Positions 31,806 to 50,408 of a stretch of 64,000 nt of DNA are shown one piece after another (the first letter of the stretch is position 1; every line of letters starts with the position of its first letter). The notes beneath the pieces were generated by a model, which was given only the letters and a program-made list of their open reading frames with translations, did not search any database and was not told where the DNA came from. The stretch is taken from assembly GCF_014621695.1 (NCBI RefSeq), contig NZ_CP061281.1:1240001-1304000 (forward strand), given 5' to 3'. Origin of the DNA: Streptomyces xanthii. Lineage in GTDB: Bacteria > Actinomycetota > Actinomycetes > Streptomycetales > Streptomycetaceae. The translations under genes and the position numbers were made by a program.

Positions 31806-31818
31806 GGTGAGGGATGTC

Positions 31819-31851: not shown

Positions 31852-31927
31852 AGGACCCGTGCGCACACGAAAGCAATTTGGACAGGGGGCGCTGGCCAGA
31901 TCTTTCGACGCAAGGGATGCGACCGTC

Positions 31928-33313: not shown

Positions 33314-33314
33314 T

Positions 33315-34756: not shown

Positions 34757-35926
34757 TCAGTGCCGTTTACGCAGCGCCGCCATGTTGTCGTAGCCGGTCT
34801 TCGCGTACTTCAGCGACTGGCCGAGGTCGGTACCGCTGGGCGCGTTGTCCTGTTCGACCATCGGGTTGTGGTAGTTCTTCCGGCCGACGCGGCTGAAGAA
34901 CGTCGTGTAGTCGATGACGCCCTCGCCGAAGGGAACCATGTCGTAGCCCATGCCGTTGGTGTCGTTGCGGGTGCCGTCCTTGGCATGGAACAGCGGATAG
35001 CGCTTGTTGTGGGCGCGGACCAGGGCCGCCGGGTCGAAGACGTTCTCCTGCTGCGAGCCGTCGTGCGCGGTGTAGGTGTGGAACTTGTACTGGGCGACGT
35101 GCGCCCAGAAGATGTCCATCTCGAGCCACACCGTGCGCGGGTCGCTGACCTGGAGGAAGTACTCCAGCTTGCGGATGCCGGAGCTGCGCGTCGGCCGGCC
35201 CTGGGCGTCGAGCGGGCCGCCGTCGAGCAGGAAGCCGTACGCGGCGTCGTGGTTGTGGGTGTAGAGCTTGAGGCCCGCCCGGTGCGCGATCTCGCCGAGC
35301 GCGTTCCACTTGTCGGCGGCGACGTCCCAGTCCGCCTTGTACGAGCTGCCGGTGGGGTCGCCGCCGGTGCCCATGTGGTCCATGCCGAGGATGTTGGCGA
35401 TCTCGAGGTGCTTCTTGAACGTGTCGATGTCGGACGTGCTGAGCGGCCAGGACGACGGGATGAAGCCGTGGTTGCCCTGGGCCCGCAGCCCGTACTCGTC
35501 GAGCCAGCCGCGCAGCAGCTTGGCGCCGGCGACGGATTCCAGGTTCGCGCCGCCGGGCGCGTTGGCGTGCTGGCCGTACCCGGCGAACTCGACCTGCTTG
35601 TAGCCGTAGCGGGCCAGCTCCTTGAACACCTCGCGGAAACCGCTGGGCAGGTCACTGGAGAGCGGGTCGCGGCCGGTCGCGTCGCGAACGGTGTAGAGGA
35701 TGATGCCGCGCTTGTGCGCGGGCACCAGGTCCTGCCCCTTGCCGTCGCCCTCGCTCTCGCCCGGGATCCGGTTCCCGGCCTGGGCGAAGGAGGGTGCGGC
35801 GCCGAGGACCGGGGCGGCTATCGCGCCTGCGGCGACGGCGGTGCAGGTGCTCAGGAAGCGGCGGCGGTTGATGCCGAGGCGGGCTCTGAGGGCCTCGTCT
35901 GCGGCGGTCTCGCGGAAGTCGGTCAC
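34757..35926 (-). CDS. Tat-exported sugar isomerase/epimerase-like TIM-barrel protein
   Basis: The product is 389 aa. A Tat signal (INRRRFLSTCTAVAAGAIAAP, about 20-45, twin Arg plus Ala-rich core ending near AQA) precedes a xylose-isomerase-like TIM barrel (Pfam AP_endonuc_2 type). Metal-site-like acidic and His residues occur in YKQVEFAGYG, LYTHNHD, VWLEMDIFW and FHAKDG. Secreted members of this fold act on oxidised or free sugars, and some are 3-keto-glycoside lyases. GTG at 35926 follows GAGAGG; an upstream GTG at 36052 would translate a 15-bp repeat array and is rejected. It lies 146 nt downstream of the ebo operon on the same strand. Confidence 0.88.
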   Translation of the reverse strand: MTDFRETAADEALRARLGINRRRFLSTCTAVAAGAIAAPVLGAAPSFAQAGNRIPGESEGDGKGQDLVPAHKRGIILYTVRDATGRDPLSSDLPSGFREVFKELARYGYKQVEFAGYGQHANAPGGANLESVAGAKLLRGWLDEYGLRAQGNHGFIPSSWPLSTSDIDTFKKHLEIANILGMDHMGTGGDPTGSSYKADWDVAADKWNALGEIAHRAGLKLYTHNHDAAYGFLLDGGPLDAQGRPTRSSGIRKLEYFLQVSDPRTVWLEMDIFWAHVAQYKFHTYTAHDGSQQENVFDPAALVRAHNKRYPLFHAKDGTRNDTNGMGYDMVPFGEGVIDYTTFFSRVGRKNYHNPMVEQDNAPSGTDLGQSLKYAKTGYDNMAALRKRH

Positions 35927-35950
35927 GGGGGTGCCTCTCGTCGGGATGCG

Positions 35951-36010
35951 GATCCTCGAAGTCCGGAACTTCGAGCTGCGGAGTTTCGAGGTGCGGAGTT
36001 TCGAGGTGCG
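35951..36010. repeat. 15-bp tandem repeat upstream of Tat TIM-barrel gene
   Basis: Four consecutive 15-nt units start at 35951, 35966, 35981 and 35996. The last two are identical (GAGTTTCGAGGTGCG) and the first two diverge. The array ends 25 nt upstream of the GTG start, in the leader or promoter of the gene, and copy number could affect expression. It would be in frame with that gene if translation began at 36052. Confidence 0.8.
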
Positions 36011-36071
36011 GGTCGGATGCCACTGGCGCGTTGTCAGTGACGTGTGCTTCACTCTCTGTAACTACTCCTGG

Positions 36072-37469
36072 TCAGGAGGGCTTCAGGCCCGCCAGATCCA
36101 GCAGCAGGGCTTTCACATCGGTGGCCGCGACACGGCCGGGGAACGCATGGGGGGTGGAGCTGATGATGAGCGGACCGTCGTCGTCGCTCGCGGGGAGGCG
36201 GCCGTGGCTGCCACGAAGAGGTGAGGGGTCCAGAGGCACGACCGCCATCCGGTAGCGCATGCCGAGCTTCTTTCGGGCGAGCGCTCCGGCGGCCTTGACC
36301 TTGACGTAGGGGTCGAGGGGGTCCATGAACAGTTCGACCGGGTCGTAGCCGGGTTTGCGGTGGATCTCGACGAGCTGCGCGAAGTCGGGGGCGCGGTCGT
36401 CGTCGAGCCAGTAGTAGTACGTGAACCAGGCGTCCGGCTCGGCGACGGCGACCAGTTCGCCGGAGCGCGGGTGGTCGAGGTGGTGGGCCTTCTTTCCCTC
36501 GTCGTCGAGGAGCCGCTCGATGCCGGGCAGTCCGTCGAGGGCGGCGCGAGTGGCGTCGAGGTCCTCGGGCCGGCGGACGTAGACGTGGGCGATCTGGTGG
36601 TCGGCGACCGCGAAGGCGCGGGAGGCCATCGGGTCGAGGTACTCCATGCCGTCCTGCGTGTGCACTTCGAGCAGACCGGCGCGGCGCAGGGCCCGGTTGA
36701 TGTCGACGGGGCGCTCGACGCGGGTGATGCCGTACTCGGACAGGGCGACGACGGTGCGGCCGGCGGCGCGGGCGTCGGAGAGGAGCGGGGCGAGGGCCGT
36801 GTCGATCTCGGCGGCGGCCTGGTGGGAGCGCGGGTCGTCGGGGCCGAAGCGCTGCAGGTCGTAGTCGAGGTGGGGGAGGTAGCACAGGGTCAGGTCGGGG
36901 TCGCGGGTGTCGATGACGTGCCGGGTGGCGTCGATGATCCACTGGCTGGACACGATGTCGGCGCCGGGGCCCCAGAAGTGGAAGAGGGGGAACGTGCCGA
37001 GTTTGTCGGTGAGTTCGTCGTGCAGGGCCGGGGGCCGGGTGTAGCAGTCGGGTTCCTTGCGGCCGTCGGCGTAGTAGACGGGTCGGGGGGTGATGGTGAT
37101 GTCGGTGTCGGCGCCCATGGCGTACCACCAGCAGATGTTGGCGACGGTGTAGCCGGGGTGCGCCCGGCGGGCCGCGTCCCAGAGTTTGTCGCCGGACACG
37201 AGGCCGTTGTGCTGGCGCCACAGGAGGACGTCGCCGAGTTCGCGGAAGTACCAGCCGTTGCCGACGATGCCGTGTTCGGAGGGCATGGTGCCGGTGAGGA
37301 AGGTCGACTGGGCGGCGCAGGTGACGGCCGGCAGCACGGTGCTGAGCGGAGCCTTGGTGCCGGATCCGGCGAGCGCCTTGAGGTTCGGCATGTGGTCGAG
37401 GAGGCGGGGGGTGAGACCGACGACGTCCAGGACGAGCAGCGGGGTCGGCCGGGGGTGCGCGTCCGTCAC
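36072..37469 (-). CDS. EboF-like phosphodiesterase/nucleotide pyrophosphatase
   Basis: The product is 465 aa of the alkaline-phosphatase superfamily (type I phosphodiesterase/NPP). Metal ligands and nucleophile appear in LLVLDVVGL and VTCAAQSTFLTGTMPSEHGI (Thr nucleophile region), with LPHLDYDLQRFG and ALSEYGI further on. Last gene of the seven-gene operon, it overlaps the upstream gene by 4 nt (GTGA). In ebo clusters this position holds the phosphatase EboF, thought to release the phosphate of the pathway intermediate. GTG 37469 was chosen for the overlap. Confidence 0.88.
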   Translation of the reverse strand: MTDAHPRPTPLLVLDVVGLTPRLLDHMPNLKALAGSGTKAPLSTVLPAVTCAAQSTFLTGTMPSEHGIVGNGWYFRELGDVLLWRQHNGLVSGDKLWDAARRAHPGYTVANICWWYAMGADTDITITPRPVYYADGRKEPDCYTRPPALHDELTDKLGTFPLFHFWGPGADIVSSQWIIDATRHVIDTRDPDLTLCYLPHLDYDLQRFGPDDPRSHQAAAEIDTALAPLLSDARAAGRTVVALSEYGITRVERPVDINRALRRAGLLEVHTQDGMEYLDPMASRAFAVADHQIAHVYVRRPEDLDATRAALDGLPGIERLLDDEGKKAHHLDHPRSGELVAVAEPDAWFTYYYWLDDDRAPDFAQLVEIHRKPGYDPVELFMDPLDPYVKVKAAGALARKKLGMRYRMAVVPLDPSPLRGSHGRLPASDDDGPLIISSTPHAFPGRVAATDVKALLLDLAGLKPS

Positions 37470-38638
37470 GGCAGCTCCTTCAGTCCGAGGTGGGTCAGCA
37501 GGTCGCGGGCGAGGGTGAGTTCGGCGGCGATGCCGTCGGCGAGCTGGGCGCGGGCCCGTGGGCGCAGCTCGGGCGGGAGGGCCTGCCAGGTGTAGGTCTC
37601 GACCTCCAGGTGGTGGGTGCGGGGGTGCTCGCCACCTACGAGCCGGGTCAGCGTGTCCTGGAGGACGTCGAGTGTGGAGGTGAGGGGTGCGGCGGGGGCC
37701 GCGTGCAGGGGGACGTGGAAGTGGGCGCGCCAGGGTGTCTCGTCCGGGAGTGCGGCGCCGTCGAGCGCGGGGCCGAGGTCGTCGGTGCCGTGGAGGGTGT
37801 CCTCGGCGACGGTGCGGGTCTGGTGCAGGAAGCGGGGTTCGTCGAAGGCGGCCAGTGCTTCGCGGACTTCGGGGAGGTGGGGGTGTTCGGCGTGCAGGGC
37901 GGCGGAGAGCTGGGATTTGACGACGGGTACGCGGGCGGCGGCGAGGGCGTCGAGCGCGGTGGCGGGGTCTTCGAAGGAGGTGGCGAGGTGGCAGGTGTCG
38001 AGGCACAGGCCGATGCGGTCGGGCCGGCCGATCCGGGTGAGCGGTGCGATGGCGTCGGCGGTGGTCTCGACGACGCAGCCGGGTTCGGGTTCCAGGCCGA
38101 CGCGGATGGACCGGCCGGTGAGTTCCTGGAGTGCGTCGAGGCGTTCGGCGAGGGTGGTGAGGGCCGTGGTGGCGGTGTCGGCGCTCCGGGTGTCGTGGGC
38201 GGTGCGCCAGGCGAGCGGAAGGGTGGAGACGGTGCCTTCGGTGACGTCGCCCGGGAGGAGGCTGGCGAGCAGCCGGGCGAGGTCGGAGGTGTGGGCGAGA
38301 CGTTCGGGGTCGGCCCAGTCCGGCTTGTAGACGCGGTACTTGACTTCCTCGGCGCCGAATCCTTCGTAGGGGAAGCCGTTGAGGGTGACGACCTCGAGGC
38401 CACGCCGGTCGAGTTCGGTGCGCAGGCCGCGCAGGGCCACGGGGTCGGTGATCAGGGCGCGGGCGGCGTCCTTTGCGAGCCAGAGTCCGATACCGAGGCG
38501 GTCGCGGCCCAGGCGTTTCCGCACGGGTTCGCAGTGGTCGCGGAGCTGCGCGAGGACGCCGTCGAGCGTCTCGGCGGGGTGCACGTTGGTGCAGTACGCG
38601 AGGTGGACGGTCGAGCCGTCGGGGTGGCGGAAGCGCAT
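37466..38638 (-). CDS. eboE: EboE-like metabolite traffic protein (TIM barrel)
   Basis: The product is 390 aa, xylose-isomerase-like. Recognisable EboE features are LAYCTNVHPAETLDG near the N-terminus, VVTLNGFPYEGFG and YKPDWADPERLA, then VGLEPEPGC, LCLDTCHLATSFED (metal/His) and WRAHFHVPLH. EboE proteins are required for ebo function but the reaction is unknown. It starts 3 nt after the EboB stop and overlaps the phosphatase start by 4 nt. Confidence 0.9.
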   Translation of the reverse strand: MRFRHPDGSTVHLAYCTNVHPAETLDGVLAQLRDHCEPVRKRLGRDRLGIGLWLAKDAARALITDPVALRGLRTELDRRGLEVVTLNGFPYEGFGAEEVKYRVYKPDWADPERLAHTSDLARLLASLLPGDVTEGTVSTLPLAWRTAHDTRSADTATTALTTLAERLDALQELTGRSIRVGLEPEPGCVVETTADAIAPLTRIGRPDRIGLCLDTCHLATSFEDPATALDALAAARVPVVKSQLSAALHAEHPHLPEVREALAAFDEPRFLHQTRTVAEDTLHGTDDLGPALDGAALPDETPWRAHFHVPLHAAPAAPLTSTLDVLQDTLTRLVGGEHPRTHHLEVETYTWQALPPELRPRARAQLADGIAAELTLARDLLTHLGLKELP

Positions 38639-38641
38639 GGG

Positions 38642-39493
38642 TCACGCTCCGCCGCGGAGGATGGAGTTGCCCTCGTGGGTGGCCTCGGGCGGGGCGGGTG
38701 CGTCGAGTTGGAGGCGGCCGCTGAGTCCGTAGAAGGCGACGGGGTTGCGCCACAGGACCAGGTCGACGTCGTCGTCGGTGAAGCCGGCGGCGAGCATGGC
38801 GTCGGCGACCTTGCGGGTCTTGAGCGGGTCGCTCTTGCCCCAGTCGGCGGCGGAGTTGACGAGGACCTTCTCCGGTCCGTAGGTCCGCAGGATGTCGACC
38901 ATGCGGTCCTCGTCCATCTTGGTGTCGGGATAGACGGAGAAGCCGAGCCAGCTGCCGGCGTCCTTGGCCTCCTTGACGGTGGTCTCATTGAGGTGGTCGA
39001 CGAGGACCCTGTCGACGGGCAGCGCGGACTCGCGGACGACGTCGAGCGTGCGGCGCAGGCCGGCGAGCTTGTCGCGGTGCGGGGTGTGCACGAGGGCGGG
39101 CAGTTCGTGGTCGGCGGCGAGTTGGAGCTGGGTGGCCAGGGCGGTGTCCTCGGCCGGGGTCATGGAGTCGTAGCCGATCTCGCCGACGGCGACGACGTTG
39201 TCCTTGACGAGGTAGCGCGGCAGGGCGTCGAGGACGGGGGTGCAGCGCGGATCGTTGGCCTCTTTGGGGTTGAGGGCGATCGTGCAGTGGTGGGTGATGC
39301 CGTACTGGGCGGCACGGAAGGGTTCCCAGCCGAGGAGCGCGTCGAAGTAGTCGAAGAAGGAGGCGGGCGAGGTGCGCGGCTGGCCGAGCCAGAAGGCGGG
39401 CTCGACGAGGGCGCGGACGCCCGCTGCGTACATGGCCTCGTAGTCGTCGGTGGTGCGCGAGGTCATGTGGATGTGCGGGTCGAAGATGCGCAT
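38642..39493 (-). CDS. eboB: EboB-like TatD-family metal hydrolase
   Basis: The product is 283 aa, an amidohydrolase-fold TatD-type enzyme. Metal ligands appear as FDPHIHM (start), EIGYDSM (Glu), HTPHRDK (His), VDHLN (His) and NSAADWG near the C-terminus. EboB belongs to this family. It starts one base inside the EboA stop (TGATG). It probably hydrolyses a pathway intermediate, and the substrate is unknown. Confidence 0.9.
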   Translation of the reverse strand: MRIFDPHIHMTSRTTDDYEAMYAAGVRALVEPAFWLGQPRTSPASFFDYFDALLGWEPFRAAQYGITHHCTIALNPKEANDPRCTPVLDALPRYLVKDNVVAVGEIGYDSMTPAEDTALATQLQLAADHELPALVHTPHRDKLAGLRRTLDVVRESALPVDRVLVDHLNETTVKEAKDAGSWLGFSVYPDTKMDEDRMVDILRTYGPEKVLVNSAADWGKSDPLKTRKVADAMLAAGFTDDDVDLVLWRNPVAFYGLSGRLQLDAPAPPEATHEGNSILRGGA

Positions 39494-40131
39494 CAGGACT
39501 CCTTCGCCTCGGTGCCCGGGTCGTGGGGTGCGGGCTCGGTCAGGGCCAGGACGCGGTGCAGGTCCTCGGGGACGGCCCGGCCGGCGGCTGTGCGTTCGGC
39601 TGCGAAGTCGCCCAGCATGCGGGCGAGTTCGGCGTCGCCGTGGGCGCGTCTGGGCAGTTCGGCGACTGCGTCGACGGGCACGCCGGTGAACAGGCACTTC
39701 AGGACGGCGTGCCGCCAGTGGTGGGCGGGCAGGTGCGCGGCGGCGTACGGGCCGACGGCGGCGGCGACGAGCCGGGTGTCGTTGGTGCGCAGCGCGTCCT
39801 CGACGAGAGGCAGTCCTTCGGGGCCCGGCACGAGGTGGGGCAGGGCGTGCAGGACGGCACGGCGTTCCGCGGCGGTGCCCTCGGTGTACAGCCGGTGGAG
39901 GGTGGTCGTGTCGGCGCCTGCGGCGTGCAGCAGGACGACGCGGGTGGCGTCGGCGTTGTCCTGGCCGGTGCGGCGCCCGGCCTCGGCGAACCGGGTCTCC
40001 CAGGCCTGCGAAGCCGTGCCGGTAGTGCTGCGGGCGGCAGCCAGGGCTTGGTCGAGCCAGTCGCGGGCGGGTTCGGTGAGCGCGGCGTCGAGGTGGGCGC
40101 GCAGCGCGGTGACGGTGGTGGTCCTGCTCAT
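39493..40131 (-). CDS. eboA: EboA-domain protein
   Basis: The product is 212 aa and all alpha-helical. It matches the EboA pattern: ARDWLDQALAAAR at the start, TRVVLLHA, LYTEGTAAERRAVLHALPHL and HHWRHAVLKCLFTGVPVD. EboA has no known activity; it is a HEAT-like scaffold in appearance. It overlaps the upstream TIM-barrel gene by 4 nt and the downstream EboB by 1 nt. Confidence 0.9.
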   Translation of the reverse strand: MSRTTTVTALRAHLDAALTEPARDWLDQALAAARSTTGTASQAWETRFAEAGRRTGQDNADATRVVLLHAAGADTTTLHRLYTEGTAAERRAVLHALPHLVPGPEGLPLVEDALRTNDTRLVAAAVGPYAAAHLPAHHWRHAVLKCLFTGVPVDAVAELPRRAHGDAELARMLGDFAAERTAAGRAVPEDLHRVLALTEPAPHDPGTEAKES

Positions 40132-40979
40132 GAGCTGCCTCCTCGTGCTGCGGCGCGGAGGAACGGGAGGGATCGGGCGGCCTGTTCGGGCCCCGCGTGG
40201 GAGTGGCGCGGGAGTTCGACGACGACGAGGCCCTGGTATCCGGTGTCGGCCAGGGCGTCGAGGACCGGCGGGAAGTCGATCTCTCCGTCGCCGAACGGGA
40301 GGTGCTCGTGGACGCCGCGCCGCATGTCCTCGATCTGGACGTGGCGCAGCCAGGGCGCCGCCGCGCGGACGCAGTCGGCGGGCGAGGCGGGTTCCAGGCA
40401 CTGGCAGTGGCCGATGTCCAGGGTGAGGCCAAGAGCGTCGGGGCTGCCGAGCAAGCCGCGCAGGTGGTGGAAGTCGTCGAGCGTGGCGAGGAGATGGCCG
40501 GGTTCGGGTTCGACGGCCAGGGGCACGCCGGCGCCGGTGGCGGCTTCCAGGAGCGGGGCGAGTTCGCCGGAGAGGCGCTTCCAGGCGGTGTCCCGGTCGG
40601 TGCCGGCCGGGGTGATGCCGCTGAAGCAGTGCGCGGCGTGGGCGCCCAGGTCGGCGGCGACCTGGACGGCGCGTACGAGGAGCCGGCCGCGGGCGGCGCG
40701 GGCGTCGGGGTCGGGGTCGAGGAGGGAGGGTCCGTGTTTGCGGCGCGGGTCGAGGACGTAGCGGGCGCCTGTCTCGACGGTGGCCTTGAGCCCGTACCGG
40801 TCCAGGGCCCGGGCGACCTGGCGGGTGCGGGCCGCCAGGTCCGGGAGCAGAGGGTCGAGGTGCATGTGGTCGAGGGTGAGGCCGACGCCGTCGTAGCCGA
40901 GGTCGGCCAGGAGGGCGAGGGCGTCGTCGAGGCGGAGGTCGGTGAGTCCGTTGGTTCCGTAGCCCCAGCGCAGGGTCAT
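40128..40979 (-). CDS. sugar phosphate isomerase/epimerase-like TIM-barrel protein of the ebo operon
   Basis: The product is 283 aa of the AP_endonuc_2 fold. It carries RWGYGTNGLTDLRL, YDGVGLTLDHMHLDPLLPDL, LAVEPEPGHL, LTLDIGHCQCL (metal Asp/His) and VQIEDMRRGVHEHLPFGDG. A second TIM barrel beside EboE is seen in actinobacterial ebo clusters. It overlaps neighbours by 4 nt on each side, so it belongs to the operon. The reaction is unknown and may act on the cyclitol or sugar intermediate. Confidence 0.88.
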   Translation of the reverse strand: MTLRWGYGTNGLTDLRLDDALALLADLGYDGVGLTLDHMHLDPLLPDLAARTRQVARALDRYGLKATVETGARYVLDPRRKHGPSLLDPDPDARAARGRLLVRAVQVAADLGAHAAHCFSGITPAGTDRDTAWKRLSGELAPLLEAATGAGVPLAVEPEPGHLLATLDDFHHLRGLLGSPDALGLTLDIGHCQCLEPASPADCVRAAAPWLRHVQIEDMRRGVHEHLPFGDGEIDFPPVLDALADTGYQGLVVVELPRHSHAGPEQAARSLPFLRAAARGGSS

Positions 40980-42442
40980 GTGACGCTCACCTTCCGGGAG
41001 AAGCGGCGGGCGAGAGGGGCGAGGGCTGCGGTGAGCAGGGCGGTTCCGGGCGCGCCCGCGCGGGCGGCCAGGGCGGCCTGGAGCGGGATCATCGCGCGGA
41101 TCCCGGCGCCGACGGCGCGCTGGGTCAGGGGTGGTGACGGGTTGAGGGCGGCATGGAGGAGGGGCCGGGTCGTGGTGACCGCGTACGCGGTGGGACCCGG
41201 CAGGCCGAGGGGGGCTGCGGCGCCTCGGCCTGCCGGGGGTCTGGTGAGGTGCGCGGCGATGGCCGCGGTGGCGGCCAGGGCCGCGGCGGGGACCTGGGGT
41301 CGGCCGCCGGTGGTCTCGTTGCGGGAGACCGTCGTGACGGCGACGGTGTGGCCGGCGAGGGTCAGGGCTGAGGGGAGGGCGGCGCGGAGCGGGGCCGGCG
41401 AGGTGGATCCGCCACGGCTCGGGCGCGGGGCGGTGGGCCGCGCGGTCGCGGTGGTCGCAGTGGTCGCGTCTGCGGCACGGCGGGCGGCTCGGCCCTGTGT
41501 CGAGCCGGTTGCGGTGGGCATGGCGCGGAGCGGAGTGCGCTGCCCGGGTGCGGTGGGCCGGAGTGCGGTGGGCGGGGGTGTTGCGGTGCCGTTCGATGCC
41601 CGGCGGCCGGGTTCGGCGCGCGGCACCGGGGCTGCCGGGGATGCGGCCGCCGGCCGAGGGGCGGTGCGGGTGGCCGAGGCGCCGAGGAAGAGGTCGAGGC
41701 CGCGGGCCGCGCCCATGGCCAGGGGTCCGGCGGGGGTGTGCTTCAGGCGCAGGTCGTACGCCCAGACCGTCGCGGCCAGGGCTCCGGCGACGGCGCCGGG
41801 GGCCCGGCCTGCGCGGAAGGCGAGGCCCACGCCCGCTGCCGTGAAGGCGCCCGCCGCCGCCAGTGCCGCGGAGGGGCGGATGCGGCCCGAGGGGATCGGG
41901 CGGTGGGGGCGGTCGACGGCGTCCTCGGCACGGTCCGCCCAGTCGTTGAGGGCCATGCCGGCCTCGTACAGGCACAGGGAGGAGGCGACGGCCAGGAGGG
42001 TACGGCGGTTCGGGCGGGCTCCGACGGCGGCGGCGCCGGCGAGGGCGTCACCGGGGACCGTGAACAGGGCGGGCAGGCGCAGGAGTTCGGCCCAGGCTCG
42101 GGCGCGGGAGGTGGCGCCTGTTCGGGGGCCGGTGCGGGATCCGTTTCGGGATCCGTTTCGGGATCCGTTTCGGGATCCGTTTCGGGGTCCGCTTCGGGTT
42201 CCGGTGGCTGCGGGTGCGTCTGCGTCGCCACGTCGGGAGGCGGGGCCGTGCGGGGTGGACCCGGTGTCGGTCGCCGCACCGGCGGTCACCACGGCAGGGG
42301 GCGCGGTTCGCGCGTCGGGGGCCTCGGCCCAGTCCCCTGCGGCTGCCCCCGCGGACGCATCCGCTGTGCCTGCCGTGTCCGCCGCGTCGAGCCTGCGGGG
42401 TCCGTTCCGCCGGCCGGTCGTCTCGGGGTCGGCCGCGCTCAT
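40976..42442 (-). CDS. eboC: EboC-like UbiA-family prenyltransferase with disordered inserts
   Basis: The product is 488 aa, versus about 290 for ordinary UbiA proteins. The core is intact: NDWADRAEDAVDRPHRPIP gives the first Asp motif and YDLRLK the second-motif region, flanked by hydrophobic helices (ALFTVPGDALAGAAAVG, AAGVGLAFRAG, AGALAATVWAY). A disordered N-terminal tail of about 115 residues holds tandem RNGS units from a 12-bp DNA repeat. A roughly 90-residue Ala/Thr/Pro/Arg-rich insert lies after the LFLGAS helix. UbiA enzymes attach a polyprenyl chain to a head group in the membrane; here a cyclitol is the likely acceptor (inference). It overlaps neighbours by 4 nt at both ends. Confidence 0.87.
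   Translation of the reverse strand: MSAADPETTGRRNGPRRLDAADTAGTADASAGAAAGDWAEAPDARTAPPAVVTAGAATDTGSTPHGPASRRGDADAPAATGTRSGPRNGSRNGSRNGSRNGSRTGPRTGATSRARAWAELLRLPALFTVPGDALAGAAAVGARPNRRTLLAVASSLCLYEAGMALNDWADRAEDAVDRPHRPIPSGRIRPSAALAAAGAFTAAGVGLAFRAGRAPGAVAGALAATVWAYDLRLKHTPAGPLAMGAARGLDLFLGASATRTAPRPAAASPAAPVPRAEPGRRASNGTATPPPTALRPTAPGQRTPLRAMPTATGSTQGRAARRAADATTATTATARPTAPRPSRGGSTSPAPLRAALPSALTLAGHTVAVTTVSRNETTGGRPQVPAAALAATAAIAAHLTRPPAGRGAAAPLGLPGPTAYAVTTTRPLLHAALNPSPPLTQRAVGAGIRAMIPLQAALAARAGAPGTALLTAALAPLARRFSRKVSVT
42135..42194. repeat. 12-bp in-frame tandem repeat in the EboC-like gene
   Basis: Four perfect copies of CGGGATCCGTTT (42135-42182) are followed by a degenerate fifth (42183-42194). 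On the minus strand it encodes repeated Arg-Asn-Gly-Ser in the disordered N-terminal tail. Copy-number change would keep the frame and only lengthen the tail. Confidence 0.9.
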
Positions 42443-43599
42443 GACCGGCCTCGCAGGCGACCCGCGAAGTCGACCAGGGCGGCGTACTGCTCGCCGAGGG
42501 ACGAGGAGGCGCCCTGGTCGGGGTCCTTGAAGTAGAAGCCGAGTTCGGGGCGGGGGCCGGTGAGGCCGACGGAATGGGCGCGCAGGAGGAGGCGGGCCAG
42601 GTCGAGGACGAGAGGGGCGGCGAGGACGGAGTCGCAGCCCTGCCAGGTGGTCTGCAGCACCATGCGGGCGCCGAGGAAGCCGTCGAAGGCGATGTGGTCC
42701 CAGGCGGTCTTCCAGTCGCCGAGTGCGGGCACGTCGTCGATGTGGACCTCGCCCTGGGGGGCGGCGCCGAGGGTGTCGGCGAGGACGCGTTCCTTGCCCG
42801 CGTTCTTGGCGGCGGCCGCGGCCGGGTCGGCCAGGGCGGCGCCGTCGCCTCCGCCGAGGAGGTTGGTGCCGGACCAGGCACGGACGTCGAGGGCGCGCTG
42901 AAGGAACATCGGGCCGAGGACGGAACGGAGGAGGGTCTGCCCGGTCTTGCCGTCGCGACCGGCGTGGGGCACGGGCGCGGTGGCGGCTTGTTCGGAGAGG
43001 GCGGGGTGGTGGAGGCCCGTCGAGGGGGTGAAGTTGACGTAGGGGCAGCCGGCACGGAGTGCGGCGGCGGCGTAGAGGGAGCTCGGGGGGAGGTGTCCGT
43101 CGGGGGGTGCCGGTTCGGTGGAGGCGACGTTCACGACGACGGCGCCGGCGAGGTTCTCGCGGCGGACGAAGTCGGTGAGGTCGGCGGCGAACGTGTCGAT
43201 GAGGGCGTCGGTCGTGCGGTCGTCGTCCCGGCCGGGAAGGGGGCCGCCGGGGCGGATCTCGCGGTCGGCGGCGGTGAGTTCGGTGTGGACGGCGGACGGG
43301 AGGCCGTGGGGCAGGACGCCGCCGGCGGCGAGGTGTTCGGCGCGTTTGGGGAGCGGGCAGTCGACGGTGTCGTGTCCGCCGAAGACGAGTGAGCTGAGGG
43401 ACGGGAGCCCGGAGTCGGTGAAGGGGGTGGTCTCGGTGACCATGCCGGTCGGGGGATGGAGTCCGGCGGCGACGGCGGCGCAGCCGGCGACAGCGGTGGT
43501 GGCGACGGAGCCGCGGGCGCCGATGAGCCAGACGCCGAAGCGCGGGGCGGGGACGGTGTCGGTGGCGGTGGGGGTGGTGGAGGACGGTTCGGTGGACAT
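42439..43599 (-). CDS. inositol-3-phosphate synthase (MIPS)
   Basis: The product is 386 aa, the prokaryotic MIPS length. The NAD-binding motif is VWLIGARGSVATT (about 24-36). Other family blocks include YVNFTPSTGLHHPAL, WSGTNLLGGGDG, DWKTAWDHIAFDGFLGARM and DSVLAAPLVLDLARLL. It converts glucose-6-phosphate to inositol-1-phosphate (numbering varies) with transient NAD reduction. It is the first gene of the seven-gene coupled operon and overlaps the UbiA gene by 4 nt (ATGA). AGGAGG lies 6 nt before ATG 43599. In canonical ebo clusters this role is taken by the dehydroquinate-synthase-like EboD, absent here. Confidence 0.92.
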   Translation of the reverse strand: MSTEPSSTTPTATDTVPAPRFGVWLIGARGSVATTAVAGCAAVAAGLHPPTGMVTETTPFTDSGLPSLSSLVFGGHDTVDCPLPKRAEHLAAGGVLPHGLPSAVHTELTAADREIRPGGPLPGRDDDRTTDALIDTFAADLTDFVRRENLAGAVVVNVASTEPAPPDGHLPPSSLYAAAALRAGCPYVNFTPSTGLHHPALSEQAATAPVPHAGRDGKTGQTLLRSVLGPMFLQRALDVRAWSGTNLLGGGDGAALADPAAAAAKNAGKERVLADTLGAAPQGEVHIDDVPALGDWKTAWDHIAFDGFLGARMVLQTTWQGCDSVLAAPLVLDLARLLLRAHSVGLTGPRPELGFYFKDPDQGASSSLGEQYAALVDFAGRLRGRS

Positions 43600-44044: not shown

Positions 44045-47000
44045 CTAGTCGCTCAGTTCCTTGAGTTGGATGTCGCGGAAGGAGACATGGTCGGCGTCAC
44101 CGTGGTTCTGGATGCCGATGTAGCCGTCCTTGAGGCTGCGCTCGGGGTCCTCGTTGGTGAAGTCGTTGATCTTGACTCCGTTGAGGAAGACCTGGAGGCG
44201 TTCGCCCTGGACCCGGATCTCGTAGGAGTTCCACTCGCCGGGCGGCTTGAGGGCCGCGTCACGGGCCTCGATGTCCGCCGCCTTGAACGTGTAGACGGAC
44301 CCGGTGGTGCGGTCGGGCGCGTCCGTGGCGTCGATCTGGACCTCGTAGCCCTTGTTCACGGCGGACCAGGGGTCGTCGGAGGCGGGGAAGCCCACGAAGA
44401 CGCCGGAGTTGTCGTCGCCCTGCATCTTCCAGTCGAGCTTGAGGGAGTACGACGAGAGCTCGTGGGCCTGGTACCAGAGCAGGCCCATGCCGCCGTTGGA
44501 CGCGAGCGTGCCGTCCTTGATGTCGAACCCGCCGGGGCCGGCCTGCTTCCAGCCGTCCAGGGTCTGGCCGTTGAAGATCGGCCGGTAGCCCTTGTCCGGC
44601 TTGCAGTCCGCCGCGGTCTGGCCGGTGGCGTACTTCAGGCCGCCGAGGAGGTGCTTGCGGTAGGCGTCGTCGGCGTAGGACTCCTTGGTGTGGCCGAGGC
44701 CGGTGTAGAAGGAGCGGCCGCCGCCGTAGTTCTGGCACCAGGCGATCGGGTGGTCGCCCTTCATGGTGCCGCCCTGGTAGGTCGTCTCGTCCAGCGAGGC
44801 GAGGACGTGGACCTTGCCGCGCGGGTTGCTGCGGTAGTTGTACAGCTCGTCGGTGCGCTCCCAGGTGGCGTCGAGGTGCTTGGTGGCCGGGTTGTCCCGG
44901 TCCTCGACGCGGACGGTGGCCTTCTGGATGGCCGGGTGGGAGTCGAACCAGGCGCCGACGAGGTTGCCGTAGTACGGCCAGTCGTACTCGGTGTCGGCGG
45001 CGGCGTGGATGCCCATGTAGCCGCCGCCGTCGGCGATGTAGTCCTCGAAGGCCTTCTGCTGGGTGTCGTTCAGGACGTCGCCGGTGGTGGAGAGGAAGAC
45101 GACGGCGTCGTAGCGGGCGAGGTTGTCGGGGGTGAACTGGGCGGCGTTCTCCGTGGCGTCGACGGTCATGTCGCTGCCCGCGCCGAGTTCCTTGAGGGCG
45201 GCGATGCCGTCCGGGATGGCGTCGTGGCGGAAGCCGGCGGTCTTGGAGAAGACCAGGACCCGCTTGGCGTCCTTCGCGGGGGCCTGGGTGGAGAGCTCGA
45301 AGGAGTCCAAGTCGTAGAGGGCTCCGGTGCCGCCCTTGAAGACGAGGTAGAGGTCGGTGGTCTTCGTCGGGACCTTCGTCAGGGCTACGTCGACGTTCTG
45401 GAAGTTCGCCCAGCCGCCGGTGACGGGGACGGTGGTGGAGCCCAGGAGGGGTCCGGTCGCGGAGCCGGTGCGCACCTCGAGGATGCCGCCGGCGCCGCCG
45501 GAGGAGACGCGGGCGGTGAGCTTCTTGACGCCGGTGAGGTTGTAGGGCGTGAAGGAGATCCAGTCGCCGTTGTGGATGTCGCCGACGGTCTTGCCGCCTT
45601 CGGCCTCCGTCTTGCTCTGCTGGGTGGTGCCCTGCTGCTTGCTGTAGTGCTCGGCCTGGCGGTGCGGCGGCTGCACGACGGCGCGGGCGGTGCCGGTGAG
45701 CGCCTCCTGGCCGTTGGCCCCCTTGTCGGTGTAGCCGGCGCCGACGACGCCGTAGATGTTGGCGTTGGGGTCGTGTCCGCCGTCACCGGCGGGCGGCTTC
45801 AGGGTGCCGGTGCAGCCCATCTCGCTGGTGAGCTCGTGGGCGTGGGAGTCGTGGCCGAGGCTGTAGGCGACCTTGACCTTGGAGCAGTCGATCTGCTCCT
45901 CGGGGTCGGTGACGGTCACCTTGAAGGGGACGGGGTCTCCGAGCTTGGCGAGGGTGCCGTTGGCCGGGAGGTCGATCTTAACCTTGGGCTCGGTGTTGCC
46001 GACGACGATCCGGGTGCTGGCGTTGCCCGTGTTGCCTTCGGGGTCCTTGGCTGTGAAGGTCGCGGTGTAGGTGCCGATCTTCTTGTACTGGTGGGTCGGG
46101 GTGAGGCCCTCGCCCTTGGTGCCGTCGCCGAAGTCCCAGCTGTAGGTCAGGTTCGGCGAGTCGGCGTCCTTGGCGGTGCCGGTGAAGGCGACCTTCATGC
46201 CGGCCGCGCCGGAGGTCCGGTCCGCCTTGACCTCGGCGATCGGGGAGAAGCCGTCGGCGGCGTTCTCGATGCGGTACAGGGCCGAGTTCTCGTCGCCCTG
46301 GAACCAGGAGACGCCGTAGTCGAGGACGTAGAGCGCGCCGTCGGGGCCGAACTCCATGTCCATGATCTGGGTGCCGGTCCACGGGAAGTCGTTGATCTTC
46401 GCGACCGTGCCGTCCTCGTTCTGCTCGATCCGCTTGATCCAGCGGCGGCCGAACTCACCGGCGAAGAAGTCCCCGTCGTAGGCCTCGGGGAACTTCACCT
46501 TGGAGTCGAGGTTCGGGTCGTAGCGGTAGACCGGGCCCCCCATCGGGGACTCGGAGCCGGAGCCGAACTCGGGCACGGAGCCGCCGTCGTACGGGATCCA
46601 CGCGGCCTGCGCGGGCGGCAGGTCGACGAGGCCCGTGTTGTGCGGCGAGGTGTTCTTCGGCGCGGCGCAGTCGAAGGTCTCGCCGGACTCCTTGGTGGCG
46701 AAGTCGTAGTCGACGTACGGGTCGTTGTTCCCGGTGCAGAACGGCCAGCCGAAGTTGGCGGCCTTGGTGACCTTGGCGAACTCGACCTGGCCGCCCGGGC
46801 CGCGCTTCGGGTCGGCGGCGCCCGCGTCGGGGCCGTAGTCGCCGACGTAGACGGTGCCGGTCTTGTCGTCGACGCTCATCCGGAACGGGTTGCGGAAGCC
46901 CATCGCGTAGATCTCGGGGCGGGTCTTCTCGGTGCCGGGGGCGAAGAGGTTGCCCTCGGGGACCGTGTACGAGCCGTCCTCGGCCACCTTGATGCGCAGG

Positions 47001-47791
47001 ATCTTGCCGCGCAGGTCGTTGGTGTTGCCGGCGGAGCGGCGGGCGTCGAACGCGGGGTTGCGGTCCGGGCGTTCGTCGATCGGGGTGAAGCCGTCGGAGG
47101 CGAAGGGGTTGGAGTCGTCGCCGGTCGACAGGTACAGGTTGCCCTGCGCGTCGAAGTCGATGTCACCGCCGACGTGGCAGCAGATGCCGCGGGACGCGGC
47201 GACGTCGATGACCTTCTTCTCGCTGGCCATGTCGAGGGTGCCGTTGCTGTTGAGGACGAAGCGGGACAGGCGGTTGACGCCGTCGAACTTCTTGAAGTCC
47301 TCGGCGGTCCCGGTCTCCGGGGCGTCACCGGCGGGGGTGTCGAGCGGCGGCGCGTAGTAGAGGTAGACGGCCCGGTTGTTCTTGAAGTCGGGGTCGATGC
47401 CGACGCCCTGCAGGCCCTCCTCGTCGTGGTTGTAGACGGGGATCTTGCCGGCGACCTTGGTGACGCCGCCCTGGTCGGTGAGGCGGAGCGTGCCGTCGCG
47501 GGCGGTGTGCAGGACGCTGCGGTCGGGCAGTACGGCGAGCGACATCGGCTCGCCCATCTCGGGCTCGCCCTTGGCCAGGGGGACCTGCTGGAACTGGCCC
47601 TCGGCGGCCGCGGCGGTCGAGGCGGCCCCGCCGGCCGAGGCAGCCGGGGCGGTGTTGTCCGCGGGCTCGGCCGCGACGGCCGTCAGCGTCGGGGTGCCCA
47701 CGGCGAGCAGGGTGCCGGTGAGCAGGGCGAGGGCGGTGCGGAGTCGGGGGCGACGCAAGGCTCCGCTGCTTCTGGATCGGGTTCTGTGCAC
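44045..47791 (-). CDS. secreted multidomain protein: PQQ-type sugar dehydrogenase propeller, PKD, CBM6, ThuA, DUF1080
   Basis: The product is 1248 aa. A signal peptide (about 1-40, hydrophobic LALLTGTLLAVG, then AVAAEPAD) is followed by a glucose/sorbosone-dehydrogenase beta-propeller (about 70-515: DEEGLQGVGIDPDF, GDIDFDAQGNLYLSTGDD, GFRNPFRMSVD). Next come PKD (520-600, YSWDFGDGTKGEG), CBM6 (712-835), ThuA (843-1058, VLVFSKTAGFRHDAIPDG) and DUF1080 (1068-1247, FNGQTLDGW, DDNSGVFVGFP). ThuA has been linked to 3-keto-disaccharide formation and DUF1080 to 3-keto-glycoside hydrolysis. The polypeptide may therefore bind, oxidise and cleave a glycoside outside the cell (inference). GTG 47791 follows GGAGGGACTTC. 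A probable ROK operator lies 187 nt upstream. Confidence 0.9.
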   Translation of the reverse strand: MHRTRSRSSGALRRPRLRTALALLTGTLLAVGTPTLTAVAAEPADNTAPAASAGGAASTAAAAEGQFQQVPLAKGEPEMGEPMSLAVLPDRSVLHTARDGTLRLTDQGGVTKVAGKIPVYNHDEEGLQGVGIDPDFKNNRAVYLYYAPPLDTPAGDAPETGTAEDFKKFDGVNRLSRFVLNSNGTLDMASEKKVIDVAASRGICCHVGGDIDFDAQGNLYLSTGDDSNPFASDGFTPIDERPDRNPAFDARRSAGNTNDLRGKILRIKVAEDGSYTVPEGNLFAPGTEKTRPEIYAMGFRNPFRMSVDDKTGTVYVGDYGPDAGAADPKRGPGGQVEFAKVTKAANFGWPFCTGNNDPYVDYDFATKESGETFDCAAPKNTSPHNTGLVDLPPAQAAWIPYDGGSVPEFGSGSESPMGGPVYRYDPNLDSKVKFPEAYDGDFFAGEFGRRWIKRIEQNEDGTVAKINDFPWTGTQIMDMEFGPDGALYVLDYGVSWFQGDENSALYRIENAADGFSPIAEVKADRTSGAAGMKVAFTGTAKDADSPNLTYSWDFGDGTKGEGLTPTHQYKKIGTYTATFTAKDPEGNTGNASTRIVVGNTEPKVKIDLPANGTLAKLGDPVPFKVTVTDPEEQIDCSKVKVAYSLGHDSHAHELTSEMGCTGTLKPPAGDGGHDPNANIYGVVGAGYTDKGANGQEALTGTARAVVQPPHRQAEHYSKQQGTTQQSKTEAEGGKTVGDIHNGDWISFTPYNLTGVKKLTARVSSGGAGGILEVRTGSATGPLLGSTTVPVTGGWANFQNVDVALTKVPTKTTDLYLVFKGGTGALYDLDSFELSTQAPAKDAKRVLVFSKTAGFRHDAIPDGIAALKELGAGSDMTVDATENAAQFTPDNLARYDAVVFLSTTGDVLNDTQQKAFEDYIADGGGYMGIHAAADTEYDWPYYGNLVGAWFDSHPAIQKATVRVEDRDNPATKHLDATWERTDELYNYRSNPRGKVHVLASLDETTYQGGTMKGDHPIAWCQNYGGGRSFYTGLGHTKESYADDAYRKHLLGGLKYATGQTAADCKPDKGYRPIFNGQTLDGWKQAGPGGFDIKDGTLASNGGMGLLWYQAHELSSYSLKLDWKMQGDDNSGVFVGFPASDDPWSAVNKGYEVQIDATDAPDRTTGSVYTFKAADIEARDAALKPPGEWNSYEIRVQGERLQVFLNGVKINDFTNEDPERSLKDGYIGIQNHGDADHVSFRDIQLKELSD

Positions 47792-47977
47792 GAAGTCCCT
47801 CCGGGAACGGGTGGGCCGTACGGAACGGGTGCTCGGACGTGCGGTGCGGGCGCCGGGGTGCGCCGTCACCCCGGAGGTGCGGGTGTCCCGGAGTGCTCGG
47901 GGCGACTGCGGGGACACGTCTGGGACCGTAGCGGCGTTTGTCCGGGGCGAACACCCCTTGCGCCACTGTTGGTTGAG

Positions 47978-48000
47978 CTTTCTCCCATCACAGGACAAAG
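47978..48000. promoter_or_regulatory. candidate ROK operator upstream of the multidomain gene
   Basis: An imperfect inverted repeat has arms CTTTCTCC (47978-47985) and GGACAAAG (47993-48000) around 7 nt. It matches 21 of 23 positions of a site at 55817-55839 upstream of the ROK gene; the differences are two adjacent central bases. It lies 187 nt upstream of the secreted multidomain gene on the minus strand. Confidence 0.65.
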
Positions 48001-48085: not shown

Positions 48086-49084
48086 TCAGCTGTTGAAGGC
48101 AGCGTCGAAGGACGCGGTGGGCGGTTCGAAGTCGAAAGCCTTCAGGCTGCGCAGGGCCTCGGGGGCCCCTTGCAGGCGGTCCATGCCGGCGTCCTCCCAC
48201 TCCACGGAGACCGGCCCCGTGTAGTCGATGGAGCGCAGCATGCGGAAGACGTCCTCCCAGGGCACGTCCCCGTGTCCGGCCGAGACGAAGTCCCAGCCGC
48301 GGCGCGGGTCGCCCCAGGGCAGGTGGGAGCCGAGGCGGCCGTTGCGGCCGTCGAGGCGGCGCCGGGCCTCCTTGCAGTCGACGTGGTAGATGCGGTCCCG
48401 GAAGTCCCACAGGAAGCCGACCGGGTCCAGGTCCTGCCACACGAAGTGCGAGGGGTCGAAGTTGAGGCCGAACGCGGGCCGGTGACCGACCGCTTCGAGC
48501 GCCTTGTGCGTGGTCCAGTAGTCGTAGGCGATCTCGCTGGGGTGGACCTCGTGGGCGAAGCGGACGCCTTCCGCGTCGAACACGTCGAGGATCGGGTTCC
48601 ACCGCTCGGCGAAGTCCTCGTAGCCGCGCTCGATCATCGACTCGGGGGCCGGGGGGAACATGGCGACGAGATGCCAGATCGACGATCCGGTGAAGCCGAT
48701 GACGGTGTCGACGCCGAAGGCCGCGGCGGCGCGCGCCGTGTCCTTGATCTCGGCGGCGGCCCGCTGCCGGACGCCTTCGGCGTCCCCGTCGCCCCAGATG
48801 CGGGCCGGCAGGATGCCCTGGTGCCGTTCGTCGATGATGGCGTCGCAGACGGCCTGGCCGACCAGGTGGTTGGAGATGGCCCAGCACTTGAGCCCGTACT
48901 TGTCGAGCAGGGCGTGGCGGGAGTCCAGGTAGGACGGGTCGGTGAGGGCCTTGTCGACCTCGAAGTGGTCGCCCCAGCAGGCGAGTTCGAGTCCGTCGTA
49001 GCCGAAGTCGCGGGCCAGGCGGCAGACTTCCTCGAGCGGCAGGTCGGCCCATTGTCCGGTGAAGAGCGTGAACTGGCGTGGCAC
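48086..49084 (-). CDS. sugar phosphate isomerase/epimerase-like TIM-barrel protein
   Basis: The product is 332 aa, cytoplasmic, of the AP_endonuc_2/xylose-isomerase fold. Metal-binding positions occur in [39 protein letters not shown] (Asp/His) and [12 protein letters not shown], then [11 protein letters not shown]. Beside a Gfo/Idh/MocA oxidoreductase this fold often epimerises or eliminates 3-keto sugars. GTG 49084 follows GAGGAGGTC. It is the last cytoplasmic gene of the ABC-transporter operon, starting 15 nt after the oxidoreductase stop. Confidence 0.9.
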
Positions 49085-49099: not shown

Positions 49100-50353
49100 T
49101 CAGGCCGGTACGGGGGTGTAGACGGAGTTCTTCGCCGCGCTCTCCTCCACGGCGGCGAGGACGCGCTGCACCTGGAGCCCGTCGGCGAACGACGGGGCGG
49201 GCGCCGTGCGGGCCGCGATCGCGTGGACGAGGTCGCGGGCCTGGTGCGCGAAGGTGTGCTCGTAGCCGAGGCCGTGGCCCGGCGGCCACCAGCCCTCCAG
49301 GTAGGGGTGCTCGGGTTCGGTCACGAGGATGCGGCGGAAGCCGGCGCTGACGCCGGGTTCGGTGTGGTCGTGGAAGTACAGCTCGTTGAGGCGCTCCAGG
49401 TCGAAGGCCAGGGAGCCGCGCTCACCGTTGAGTTCCACTTTCAGGGCGTTCTTGCGGCCGGAGGCGAAGCGGGTCGCCTCGAAGGAGGCGAGTGCCCCGG
49501 AGGCGAAGCGGCCGGTGAACACGGCGGCGTCGTCGACGGTGACCTGCCCGACGCCGCCGGCGCCGGTCGCCGACAGGCCCGAGGTGGCGCCGGCCGGCAG
49601 CGGGCGTTCCTTGACGAAGGTCTCGGTGAGCGCGGAGACCCCGGCGACGGGCTCCCCCGCGAGGAACTGGGCGAGGTCGACGGCGTGCGCCCCCAGGTCA
49701 CCGAGTGCGCCCGAGCCGGCGTACGGCTTCTGCAGGCGCCAGGTGAGCGGGAAGGCGGGGTCGACGAGCCAGTCCTGGAGGTAGCTGACGCGGACGTGGC
49801 GCAGGGTGCCGAGGCGGCCCTCGGAGATCATCCGGCGGGCCAGCGCGATGGCCGGGACCCGCCGGTAGTTGAAGCCGGTCATGGCGAGCTGGCCGCGTGC
49901 GGCGGCGGCCCGCGCGGCCTCGGTCATCGCCTCGGCCTCCTCGACGGTGTTGGCGAGGGGCTTCTCGCACAGCACGTGCTTGCCGGCCTCGAGGGCGGCG
50001 ACGGCGATCTCGGCGTGGCTGTCGCCGGGGGTGCAGATGTCGACGAGGTCGACGTCGTCCCGGGCGATCAGCGCACGCCAGTCGGTCTCGGCCGCGGCCC
50101 AGCCGAGCCGGTCGGCCGCCTCGCGCACGGCCTGTCCGTCCCGCCCGCAGACCGCGGCGAGCCGGGGCCTGAGCGGAAGGTCGAAGGCGTGTCCGACCGT
50201 GCGCCACCCCTGGGAGTGGGCGGCGCCCATGAACGCGTAGCCGACCATGCCGACGCCGAGCACGGGCTTGTGCCCGCTCGCGCCGCTCCCCTCTCCGCCG
50301 CCGTCCCCCGTCGCTTCCCGGACCGTCGTCGGGCCCGTGCTGCTGCCTGCCAT
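49100..50353 (-). CDS. Gfo/Idh/MocA-family NAD(P)-dependent sugar oxidoreductase
   Basis: The product is 417 aa. The Rossmann motif GVGMVGYAFMGAAH (about 33-46) follows a disordered Gly/Ser-rich N-terminus of about 28 residues. The family motif CEKPLAN (Lys, Pro) lies near 128 and the C-terminal substrate domain starts at about 155, with GALGDLGAHAVDLAQF (conserved Asp/His). Members oxidise a sugar hydroxyl, frequently C3. ATG 50353 is supported by AGGAGGA. It starts 55 nt after the ABC binding-protein stop, and the TIM-barrel gene follows it. Confidence 0.92.
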   Translation of the reverse strand: MAGSSTGPTTVREATGDGGGEGSGASGHKPVLGVGMVGYAFMGAAHSQGWRTVGHAFDLPLRPRLAAVCGRDGQAVREAADRLGWAAAETDWRALIARDDVDLVDICTPGDSHAEIAVAALEAGKHVLCEKPLANTVEEAEAMTEAARAAAARGQLAMTGFNYRRVPAIALARRMISEGRLGTLRHVRVSYLQDWLVDPAFPLTWRLQKPYAGSGALGDLGAHAVDLAQFLAGEPVAGVSALTETFVKERPLPAGATSGLSATGAGGVGQVTVDDAAVFTGRFASGALASFEATRFASGRKNALKVELNGERGSLAFDLERLNELYFHDHTEPGVSAGFRRILVTEPEHPYLEGWWPPGHGLGYEHTFAHQARDLVHAIAARTAPAPSFADGLQVQRVLAAVEESAAKNSVYTPVPA

Positions 50354-50408
50354 GCGGAAGTCCTCCTCGTCCACGCCGTGATCGCCAGGTGCCTCGTGCC
50401 CGCACCCG

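Follow-up and report, generated by a model that had tools for sequence, protein, structure and literature searches.

The ebo operon was named in 2016, and an isoprenoid-cyclitol compound was proposed for its EboD-type form; EboD itself is a PF01761 protein (Yurchenko et al. 2016, PMC5133447). In its canonical form (eboABCDEF), known from Bacteroidota, Cyanobacteria and others and as the EDB cluster of Pseudomonas, it is a tight operon encoding EboA, EboB, EboE and EboF together with a UbiA-superfamily prenyltransferase and a sugar-phosphate cyclase. In Nostoc, eboA, B, C, E and F were deleted, and each is needed for export of the scytonemin monomer; eboD is not among these deletions (PMC6282210). 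We analysed a 64,000-nucleotide stretch of Streptomyces xanthii (contig NZ_CP061281.1, positions 1,240,001 to 1,304,000), henceforth the window, which is part of an 8.35 Mb Streptomyces-like genome. It carries an ebo operon of variant form, with a homologue of inositol-3-phosphate synthase (MIPS) in the place of EboD.

No description of this MIPS form was found in the open-access papers that our searches listed. The word "inositol" is absent from the available text of Yurchenko et al. 2016, which mentions, as data not shown, an actinobacterial EboA fused to a xylose-isomerase-like part (PMC5133447). SCO3242-SCO3243 of Streptomyces coelicolor, a putative transferase beside a myo-inositol phosphate synthase, correspond by annotation to the first two genes of the window operon, but the available part of the source counts them with the calcium-dependent antibiotic (CDA) genes only, and not as ebo (PMC3610822). 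NCBI models already include an SCO3242 family and give EboE the name "metabolite traffic protein", and the gene row can be seen in public annotation. A prenylated cyclitol product for ebo has likewise been proposed before (Yurchenko 2016).

The operon and its cyclase

The operon comprises seven genes on the minus strand (36072-43599), in the order MIPS, UbiA, TIM barrel, EboA, EboB, EboE and EboF. The MIPS/UbiA, UbiA/TIM and TIM/EboA junctions are 4-nt ATGA overlaps, EboA and EboB overlap by 1 nt, a 3-nt gap separates EboB from EboE, and EboE and EboF share a 4-nt GTGA overlap. These junctions bear out the sequence-only reading of this DNA, which had described seven genes coupled through overlaps of 1-4 nt or a gap of 3 nt. 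The layout is that of a canonical ebo operon, with EboA, EboB, EboE, EboF, a UbiA protein and a sugar-phosphate cyclase. It differs in having MIPS instead of EboD (PF01761), a UbiA of the SCO3242 type rather than the EboC type and, as is usual for this form, an extra TIM barrel.

The first gene, in the EboD place (42439..43599, minus strand), encodes a 386-aa homologue of the inositol-3-phosphate synthase family, with an ATG start preceded by AAGGAGG. Both family domains were matched (PF07994, 113 bits, cut-off 25; PF01658, 100 bits, cut-off 27), and the protein is 97% identical to a copy from a Streptomyces sp. The sequence-only reading had placed MIPS here instead of EboD and had pointed to an eboD homologue elsewhere in the genome as something to look for. 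A whole-genome PF01761 search returned a single match. It scores 355 bits with the aroB model, above the cut-off of 305, and is preceded by aroE, aroC and aroK (these three named by eye from their translations). An EboD encoded elsewhere in the genome was therefore ruled out, and that part of the reading stands. The genome has two MIPS genes, the ebo copy and one at 3.90 Mb. The latter is of the mycothiol type (TIGR03450, 737 bits, cut-off 638), and the ebo copy fails the same model with 19.6 bits.

The closest solved relatives of the window MIPS are archaeal (Archaeoglobus fulgidus, PDB 1u1i, E 1e-56), with eukaryotic and mycobacterial enzymes ranking behind. Over the C-terminal part, 90 of 209 residues are identical to A. 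fulgidus MIPS, and N246, K265, K269, K297 and K358 match its N255, K274, K278, K306 and K367, which we take to be the catalytic residues of MIPS; K278 and K367 read Ala in the aligned PDB entries 3qvw and 3qvx. The five residues are invariant in the ebo copies compared (61 actinobacterial, one from Gemmatimonadota and three haloarchaeal). Apart from lying in an ebo operon, the window enzyme differs from A. fulgidus MIPS at Gly250, where the latter has Asp259. Gly250 is found in 61 of 61 actinobacterial ebo copies, and the 11 other MIPS compared have Asn. An AlphaFold2 model of the window MIPS was set aside for its predicted local distance difference test (pLDDT) score of 48.8.

Such a difference raises the question of whether the homologue is a cyclase with changed substrate or product, for instance of the five-membered cyclitol-phosphate synthase type, giving a ring cyclitol other than inositol. 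A related synthase of that kind has been solved (6k96), and the other genomic MIPS meets the mycothiol model, which would leave the ebo copy free to diverge. We nevertheless consider this rather unlikely: all of the active-site Lys and Asn residues are kept, 6k96 is a distant match (E 1.3e-6) and 1u1i a far closer one, and the haloarchaeal ebo MIPS groups with a haloarchaeal MIPS from outside ebo, albeit weakly (support 90/44). The residue comparison used all 72 rows of the MIPS alignment, and the tree 34 of the 72. In this tree, the actinobacterial ebo copies form a clade (98/100). Ebo copies from haloarchaea, Gemmatirosa and actinobacteria do not come together in it to the exclusion of other MIPS, and we rejected the idea that MIPS-type ebo is one monophyletic cassette.

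MIPS genes were also seen in other settings. In one genome, a third MIPS lies directly beside a TIM2 gene (TIM2 is described below), away from the ebo cluster of the same genome (G136:C11:39267-41315). Plasmids of Hymenobacter and Roseomonas carry MIPS, Gfo/Idh, a YcaO-like protein and a sugar phosphate isomerase/epimerase family protein in a row (L202:6839-13465, L203:6635-13987).

Five further genes of the operon also lie on the minus strand. The extra TIM-barrel enzyme (40128..40979) matches PF01261 with 153 bits. EboA (39493..40131) meets the EboA domain model NF035938 (169 bits, cut-off 50) and falls below the narrower family model NF035937 (60 bits versus 320). EboB (38642..39493) is a TatD-like metallo-hydrolase (PF01026, 45 bits); it is 57% identical to Azospirillum EboB, and an HxHMxSRTTDDY stretch is common to the six EboB proteins compared. 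EboE (37466..38638), the TIM-barrel "metabolite traffic protein", meets NF035939 (428 bits, cut-off 250). EboF (36072..37469, GTG start) belongs to the type I phosphodiesterase/nucleotide pyrophosphatase family (PF01663, 244 bits) and is 52-58% identical to EboF from three EboD-type clusters. A sigma-70 scan found no site and is uninformative at this G+C. PADLOC gave no match for the five proteins submitted, and a defence role was rejected.

EboA is predicted to be all-helical (AlphaFold2 model, pLDDT 92.7). A fold search with this model against the PDB gave no match below E 0.19, so that "HEAT-like" is an impression only. An all-helical protein would suit scaffolding, and Klicki et al. suggested for EboA, EboB and EboC that the Ebo proteins form a membrane export complex, in which the cyclase would have a side role. 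Although each of the five ebo deletions in Nostoc blocks monomer export (PMC6282210), this explanation seems very unlikely to us, because a swap between sugar phosphate cyclases of different ancestry preserves a chemistry and not a shared interaction surface.

Distribution of the two cyclase types

The sequence-only reading had also proposed a survey of which ebo clusters have MIPS and which have EboD. We searched 246 Actinomycetes genomes and found an EboE match in 67 (over the cut-off in 64 of these). Across the 67 EboE loci over the cut-off, MIPS lies within 8 kb in 59 and a PF01761 match within 15 kb in none. The distance count left out most canonical MIPS rows and six weak rows; by eye, none of them is near an EboE locus. 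Since MIPS stands beside EboE in 59 of 67 loci, the window included, the arrangement is not due to chance. The 66 fetched loci (window excluded) contain MIPS in 59, UbiA in 60, EboA, EboB and EboF in 63 each, the TIM barrel in 58 and EboD in none. No locus among those tested with both queries holds MIPS and EboD together. Three otherwise full clusters lack the TIM barrel (L046, L048 and L063). The minimal set is therefore EboA, EboB, a C-like UbiA, EboE and EboF plus MIPS, with EboD replaced one for one.

Eight loci have no MIPS within 8 kb. Two stop at a contig end and their genomes have MIPS on another contig; in a third, part of a MIPS lies next to EboE and a more complete one on another contig, probably because of an assembly break; a fourth comes from a genome with a second MIPS elsewhere. 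The fifth is a second cluster (L047:13813-16709) in a same-genus genome (G057) that also carries a MIPS-type cluster; upstream of its UbiA, in the usual place of MIPS, it has genes for an inositol monophosphatase and an FAD oxidoreductase. The other three are considered below. Weaker, shorter EboE matches under the cut-off have no ebo neighbours (L108-L116).

In a second set of EboE records (40 listed of 48 matched), MIPS lies within 10 kb of EboE in 29 of the 32 listed records compared for MIPS distance, and is not found within that distance in NBC_01562, NBC_01340 and NBC_01244. The last of these, Streptomyces sp. NBC_01244, has a lone eboE adjoining type II polyketide genes (L035:7995-9173). 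Three of the eight other listed records, plasmids of Deinococcus, Azospirillum and Ketogulonicigenium, were inspected, and in all of them the ebo cluster includes a gene annotated 3-dehydroquinate synthase. Across the actinobacteria sampled, MIPS is the usual form.

Outside the actinobacteria, we compared the best 80 of 581 EboB loci by likeness to Gemmatirosa EboB, a biased sample, mostly from Planctomycetota and Verrucomicrobiota, with many loci on short contigs. EboD is present in 34 of these 80. Planctomycete loci L156:12103-16130 and L195 have EboB, EboF, UbiA and TIM barrels, with no match to either cyclase. None of seven ebo components was matched in a 25-kb stretch of a Calothrix plasmid that carries a ScyD/ScyE relative.

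MIPS-type clusters do occur in other phyla. A plasmid of Gemmatirosa (Gemmatimonadota) carries TIM, MIPS, UbiA, EboF, EboB and EboE, with no EboD match within the 17 kb fetched. Its EboB shares 71% identity with Deinococcus EboB and 42% with the window protein; its EboE is 47-49% identical to three EboD-type EboE proteins versus 40% to the window protein, and its EboF 59-65% versus 58%. The trees of EboB and EboF were built from a third of the actinobacterial MIPS-type whole-genome rows and from those non-actinobacterial EboB loci that have one of the two cyclases. In the EboB tree, Gemmatirosa falls in a starred set with eight EboD-type rows, and a grouping with all actinobacterial rows was rejected by the approximately unbiased (AU) test (p 9e-4). 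As Gemmatirosa EboB is of the EboD-type lineage, MIPS entered that cluster separately or came by transfer (one plasmid). Cyclase type would have to change three times on the EboB tree and twice on the EboF tree. Haloarchaeal plasmids of Halobaculum, Halocatena and Natronococcus have MIPS, UbiA, EboB and EboF with two TIM barrels. No EboD or EboA match was found in these three loci, and EboE-like matches were weak and to the TIM barrels. EboB of Halobaculum and Halocatena is 43-47% identical to the window and S. camelliae copies. Because MIPS is found both in a Gemmatimonadota cluster with EboD-lineage EboB and on three haloarchaeal plasmids, the cyclase swap must have arisen or moved more than once.

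The second gene of the window operon, in the EboC position (40976..42442, minus strand), encodes a UbiA-superfamily prenyltransferase of the SCO3242 family. The sequence-only reading was right that the operon has a UbiA transferase; the type is another matter, as the protein meets the SCO3242 model (NF045897, 350 bits, cut-off 260) and falls below the EboC model (NF035940, 138 bits, cut-off 250). The latter is a narrow test, since three plasmid EboD-type UbiA proteins also fail it (76-96 bits). Among the other UbiA proteins scored, that of Gemmatirosa has 173 bits with the SCO3242 and 136 with the EboC model, two haloarchaeal proteins have 165-178 with either, and the three plasmid EboD-type enzymes have 76-100 with either. 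The first Asp-rich motif of the window protein is NDWADRAED, and NDxxDxxxD is kept in the consensus of 66 MIPS-type proteins; no clear second Asp-rich motif was seen in the consensus (sequence consensus only). At 488 aa versus 287 family-model positions, the protein has an N-terminal extension and a low-complexity insert inside the UbiA region. Part of the extension is encoded by 5.8 copies of a tandem repeat of 12 nt (42121-42206). Several Streptomyces UbiA relatives likewise give split matches. When 104 UbiA proteins were placed in a tree, two changes between MIPS and EboD were enough to account for cyclase type, and a single clade of all MIPS-type UbiA was neither established nor rejected (AU p 0.60). 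This hints that prenyltransferase type may change along with cyclase type.

Proposed pathway and product

The operon can be read as a pathway to a cyclitol lipid, a reading to which we give an even chance. A second, dedicated MIPS, distinct from the mycothiol-type copy, would supply the ring that EboD gives elsewhere by cyclising a hexose phosphate; the likeliest reaction is that of glucose 6-phosphate to 1D-myo-inositol 3-phosphate. EboF would probably remove or exchange a phosphate, and the TIM barrels (TIM and EboE) and EboB would modify the ring, with EboA as a helical helper. At the membrane, the SCO3242-type UbiA would attach a prenyl chain, and the resulting lipid may serve the export or extracellular processing of other metabolites, as reported for Nostoc ebo. 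The observed basis is the gene content, the absence of EboD, MIPS in the EboD place in several lineages, the intact active-site residues of MIPS and the recurrent neighbours. From it we infer the substrate, the order of steps and the prenylated product, and the role in metabolite traffic would be one borrowed from a distant relative. MIPS and EboD are, as we take it, of different ancestry with the same kind of chemistry. A cyclitol ring gains support because EboD is replaced by just such an enzyme. The replacement suggests a ring-shaped sugar alcohol as the basis of the ebo product, and an inositol-based prenylated product, as put forward in the sequence-only reading, is plausible.

Several observations weigh against this pathway. 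The EboC-type group Ubi-297 farnesylates an aromatic acid, 8-hydroxyquinoline-2-carboxylic acid, and not a cyclitol, and the same paper counts Saccharomonospora, an actinobacterium, as an ebo carrier and speaks of EboD generally (PMC9235831). No product, activity or phenotype was found for any MIPS-type cluster. Gly250 could, from the alignment, change the specificity of the actinobacterial ebo MIPS. Three of the eight loci without nearby MIPS are lone EboE genes in three genomes (L072, L098 and L107). In the other phyla, none of the best 80 of 581 EboB loci has MIPS, and a Haladaptatus locus has UbiA, EboB and EboF with neither cyclase within 16 kb. Six EboD-type UbiA proteins (L121, L123, L124, L125, L127 and the long-branch L142) fall on the MIPS side of the UbiA tree, and the Gemmatirosa UbiA has no clear side (AU p 0.45). 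For EboF, the grouping of Gemmatirosa with actinobacteria was not rejected (AU p 0.17). We dropped EboF as a second proof of an EboD-derived Gemmatirosa cluster for that reason.

Flanking genes and their bearing on the product

Many clusters are flanked by genes of a keto-sugar type, which we viewed to about 9 kb from EboE in the fetched loci. In the window, the four given here with coordinates lie on the minus strand. Downstream of EboF and possibly linked to the operon is a PF01261 TIM barrel (34757..36052, 85 bits, start probably internal) with a twin-arginine-like N-terminus by eye; a PF01261 match of this type of at least 60 bits lies within 9 kb in 32 of 66 EboE loci. Upstream is a multidomain protein with GSDH, PKD, CBM6, ThuA and 3-keto-disaccharide-hydrolase Pfam domains (44045..47998), secreted-looking by eye. 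Its GSDH part is near 28 of 66 EboE loci, and the whole window genome has three GSDH matches. It is followed upstream by TIM2, a PF01261 TIM barrel (48086..49084, 147 bits), by a Gfo/Idh/MocA dehydrogenase assigned by Pfam (49100..50374) and, further on, by a sugar-type substrate-binding protein and a ROK regulator.

Of the 246 genomes, 89 have TIM2 relatives (E 1e-60), and in 38 of the 54 genomes holding both, TIM2 lies within 15 kb of EboE. The proximity expected by chance is below 1% (one gene in ~7 Mb), a contrast inflated by common ancestry. In 21 of 26 loci showing TIM2, it is 3' of EboF on the same strand within 200 nt, and in the window it is upstream of MIPS. A TIM2 of 58% identity lies beside the Gemmatirosa cluster, a Gfo of 43% identity in the Haladaptatus locus and a GSDH protein in that of Natronococcus. 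The link may also be one of a shared island only.

These neighbours would also suit an operon that works in carbohydrate metabolism together with the ABC transporter, Gfo/Idh, TIM2 and ThuA/3-keto-hydrolase genes at its flanks, without a prenylated product of its own. The sugar genes are linked to ebo in actinobacteria, Gemmatirosa and haloarchaea alike, and the three lone EboE loci are near sugar-type ABC transporter genes. We regard it as highly improbable, since 60 of 66 loci retain a prenyltransferase gene, the consensus of the MIPS-type proteins has NDxxDxxxD, and there are clusters apart from these sugar genes, some of them adjoining nonribosomal peptide synthetase genes.

The same flanks could instead belong to the ebo product. 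Levoglucosan is taken through oxidation, elimination and hydration by one dehydrogenase and two sugar-phosphate-isomerase-like enzymes (PMC7676230). These enzymes, LgdA, LgdB1 and LgdB2, are broadly of the Gfo/Idh and PF01261 kinds present in the window flank, so that a keto-sugar or keto-cyclitol step is possible, although the window Gfo itself differs from levoglucosan dehydrogenase (NF052479, 363 bits, cut-off 650). Oxidation and dehydration would then turn the cyclitol into an enolic or phenolic ring, and prenylation of this ring would yield a quinone-like redox carrier in the membrane for secreted beta-propeller oxidoreductases (GSDH, ScyE-like). Besides the recurrent GSDH protein and the aromatic substrate of Ubi-297 (PMC9235831), four Streptomyces plasmids fit this scheme, as a ScyD/ScyE-family gene immediately precedes MIPS in them (in NBC_00019 by coordinates), an arrangement reminiscent of scytonemin genes. 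All six Streptomyces plasmids with a ScyD/ScyE match carry MIPS-type ebo. The four adjacent cases are 78-100% identical and therefore represent one lineage. Three plasmids (L209, L211 and L041) also have a multicopper oxidase gene downstream of MIPS-type ebo and ScyD/ScyE, and two of them (L209 and L211) have cydABCD-type and hemerythrin genes nearby. At E 1e-10, however, ScyD/ScyE gave no match in the window genome and lies near ebo in 1 of 67 genomes, for which reason we dropped it as a general ebo partner. The flanking genes may just as well form a sugar catabolic module in their own right, 18 of 66 loci show no flanking marker of the five within 9 kb, and the Nostoc ebo mutants fail in export and not in oxidation only (PMC6282210). 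A quinone-like carrier is therefore quite unlikely in our judgement.

Two further observations concern the surroundings. A ScyD/ScyE relative lies directly downstream of the genome's other MIPS gene in two genomes (G064:C17:20067-21964 and G079:C177:30-2013). Window positions 26562-34682, which resemble an oxalate-use locus, encode a thiamine pyrophosphate (TPP) enzyme, a CoA-transferase family III protein, an acyl-CoA-ligase-like protein and two MFS-like transporters (the transporters by eye).

It is decidedly unlikely, in our estimate, that ebo operons of both cyclase types turn a sugar-derived ring into a prenylated keto-cyclitol or phenol dedicated to redox or carrier duties in the membrane for extracellular enzymes and metabolites, with MIPS recruited more than once, archaea included; if true, ebo would encode a widespread isoprenoid cofactor of cyclitol origin that was never isolated. 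The haloarchaeal and Gemmatimonadota forms show the ebo module to cross phyla and domains. The swap for a cyclase with a known usual product narrows the guess, in that a sugar-alcohol ring can start the ebo product. Gene deletion and feeding of labelled inositol are routine in Streptomyces. As the MIPS form lives in this genus, the ebo product becomes directly testable.

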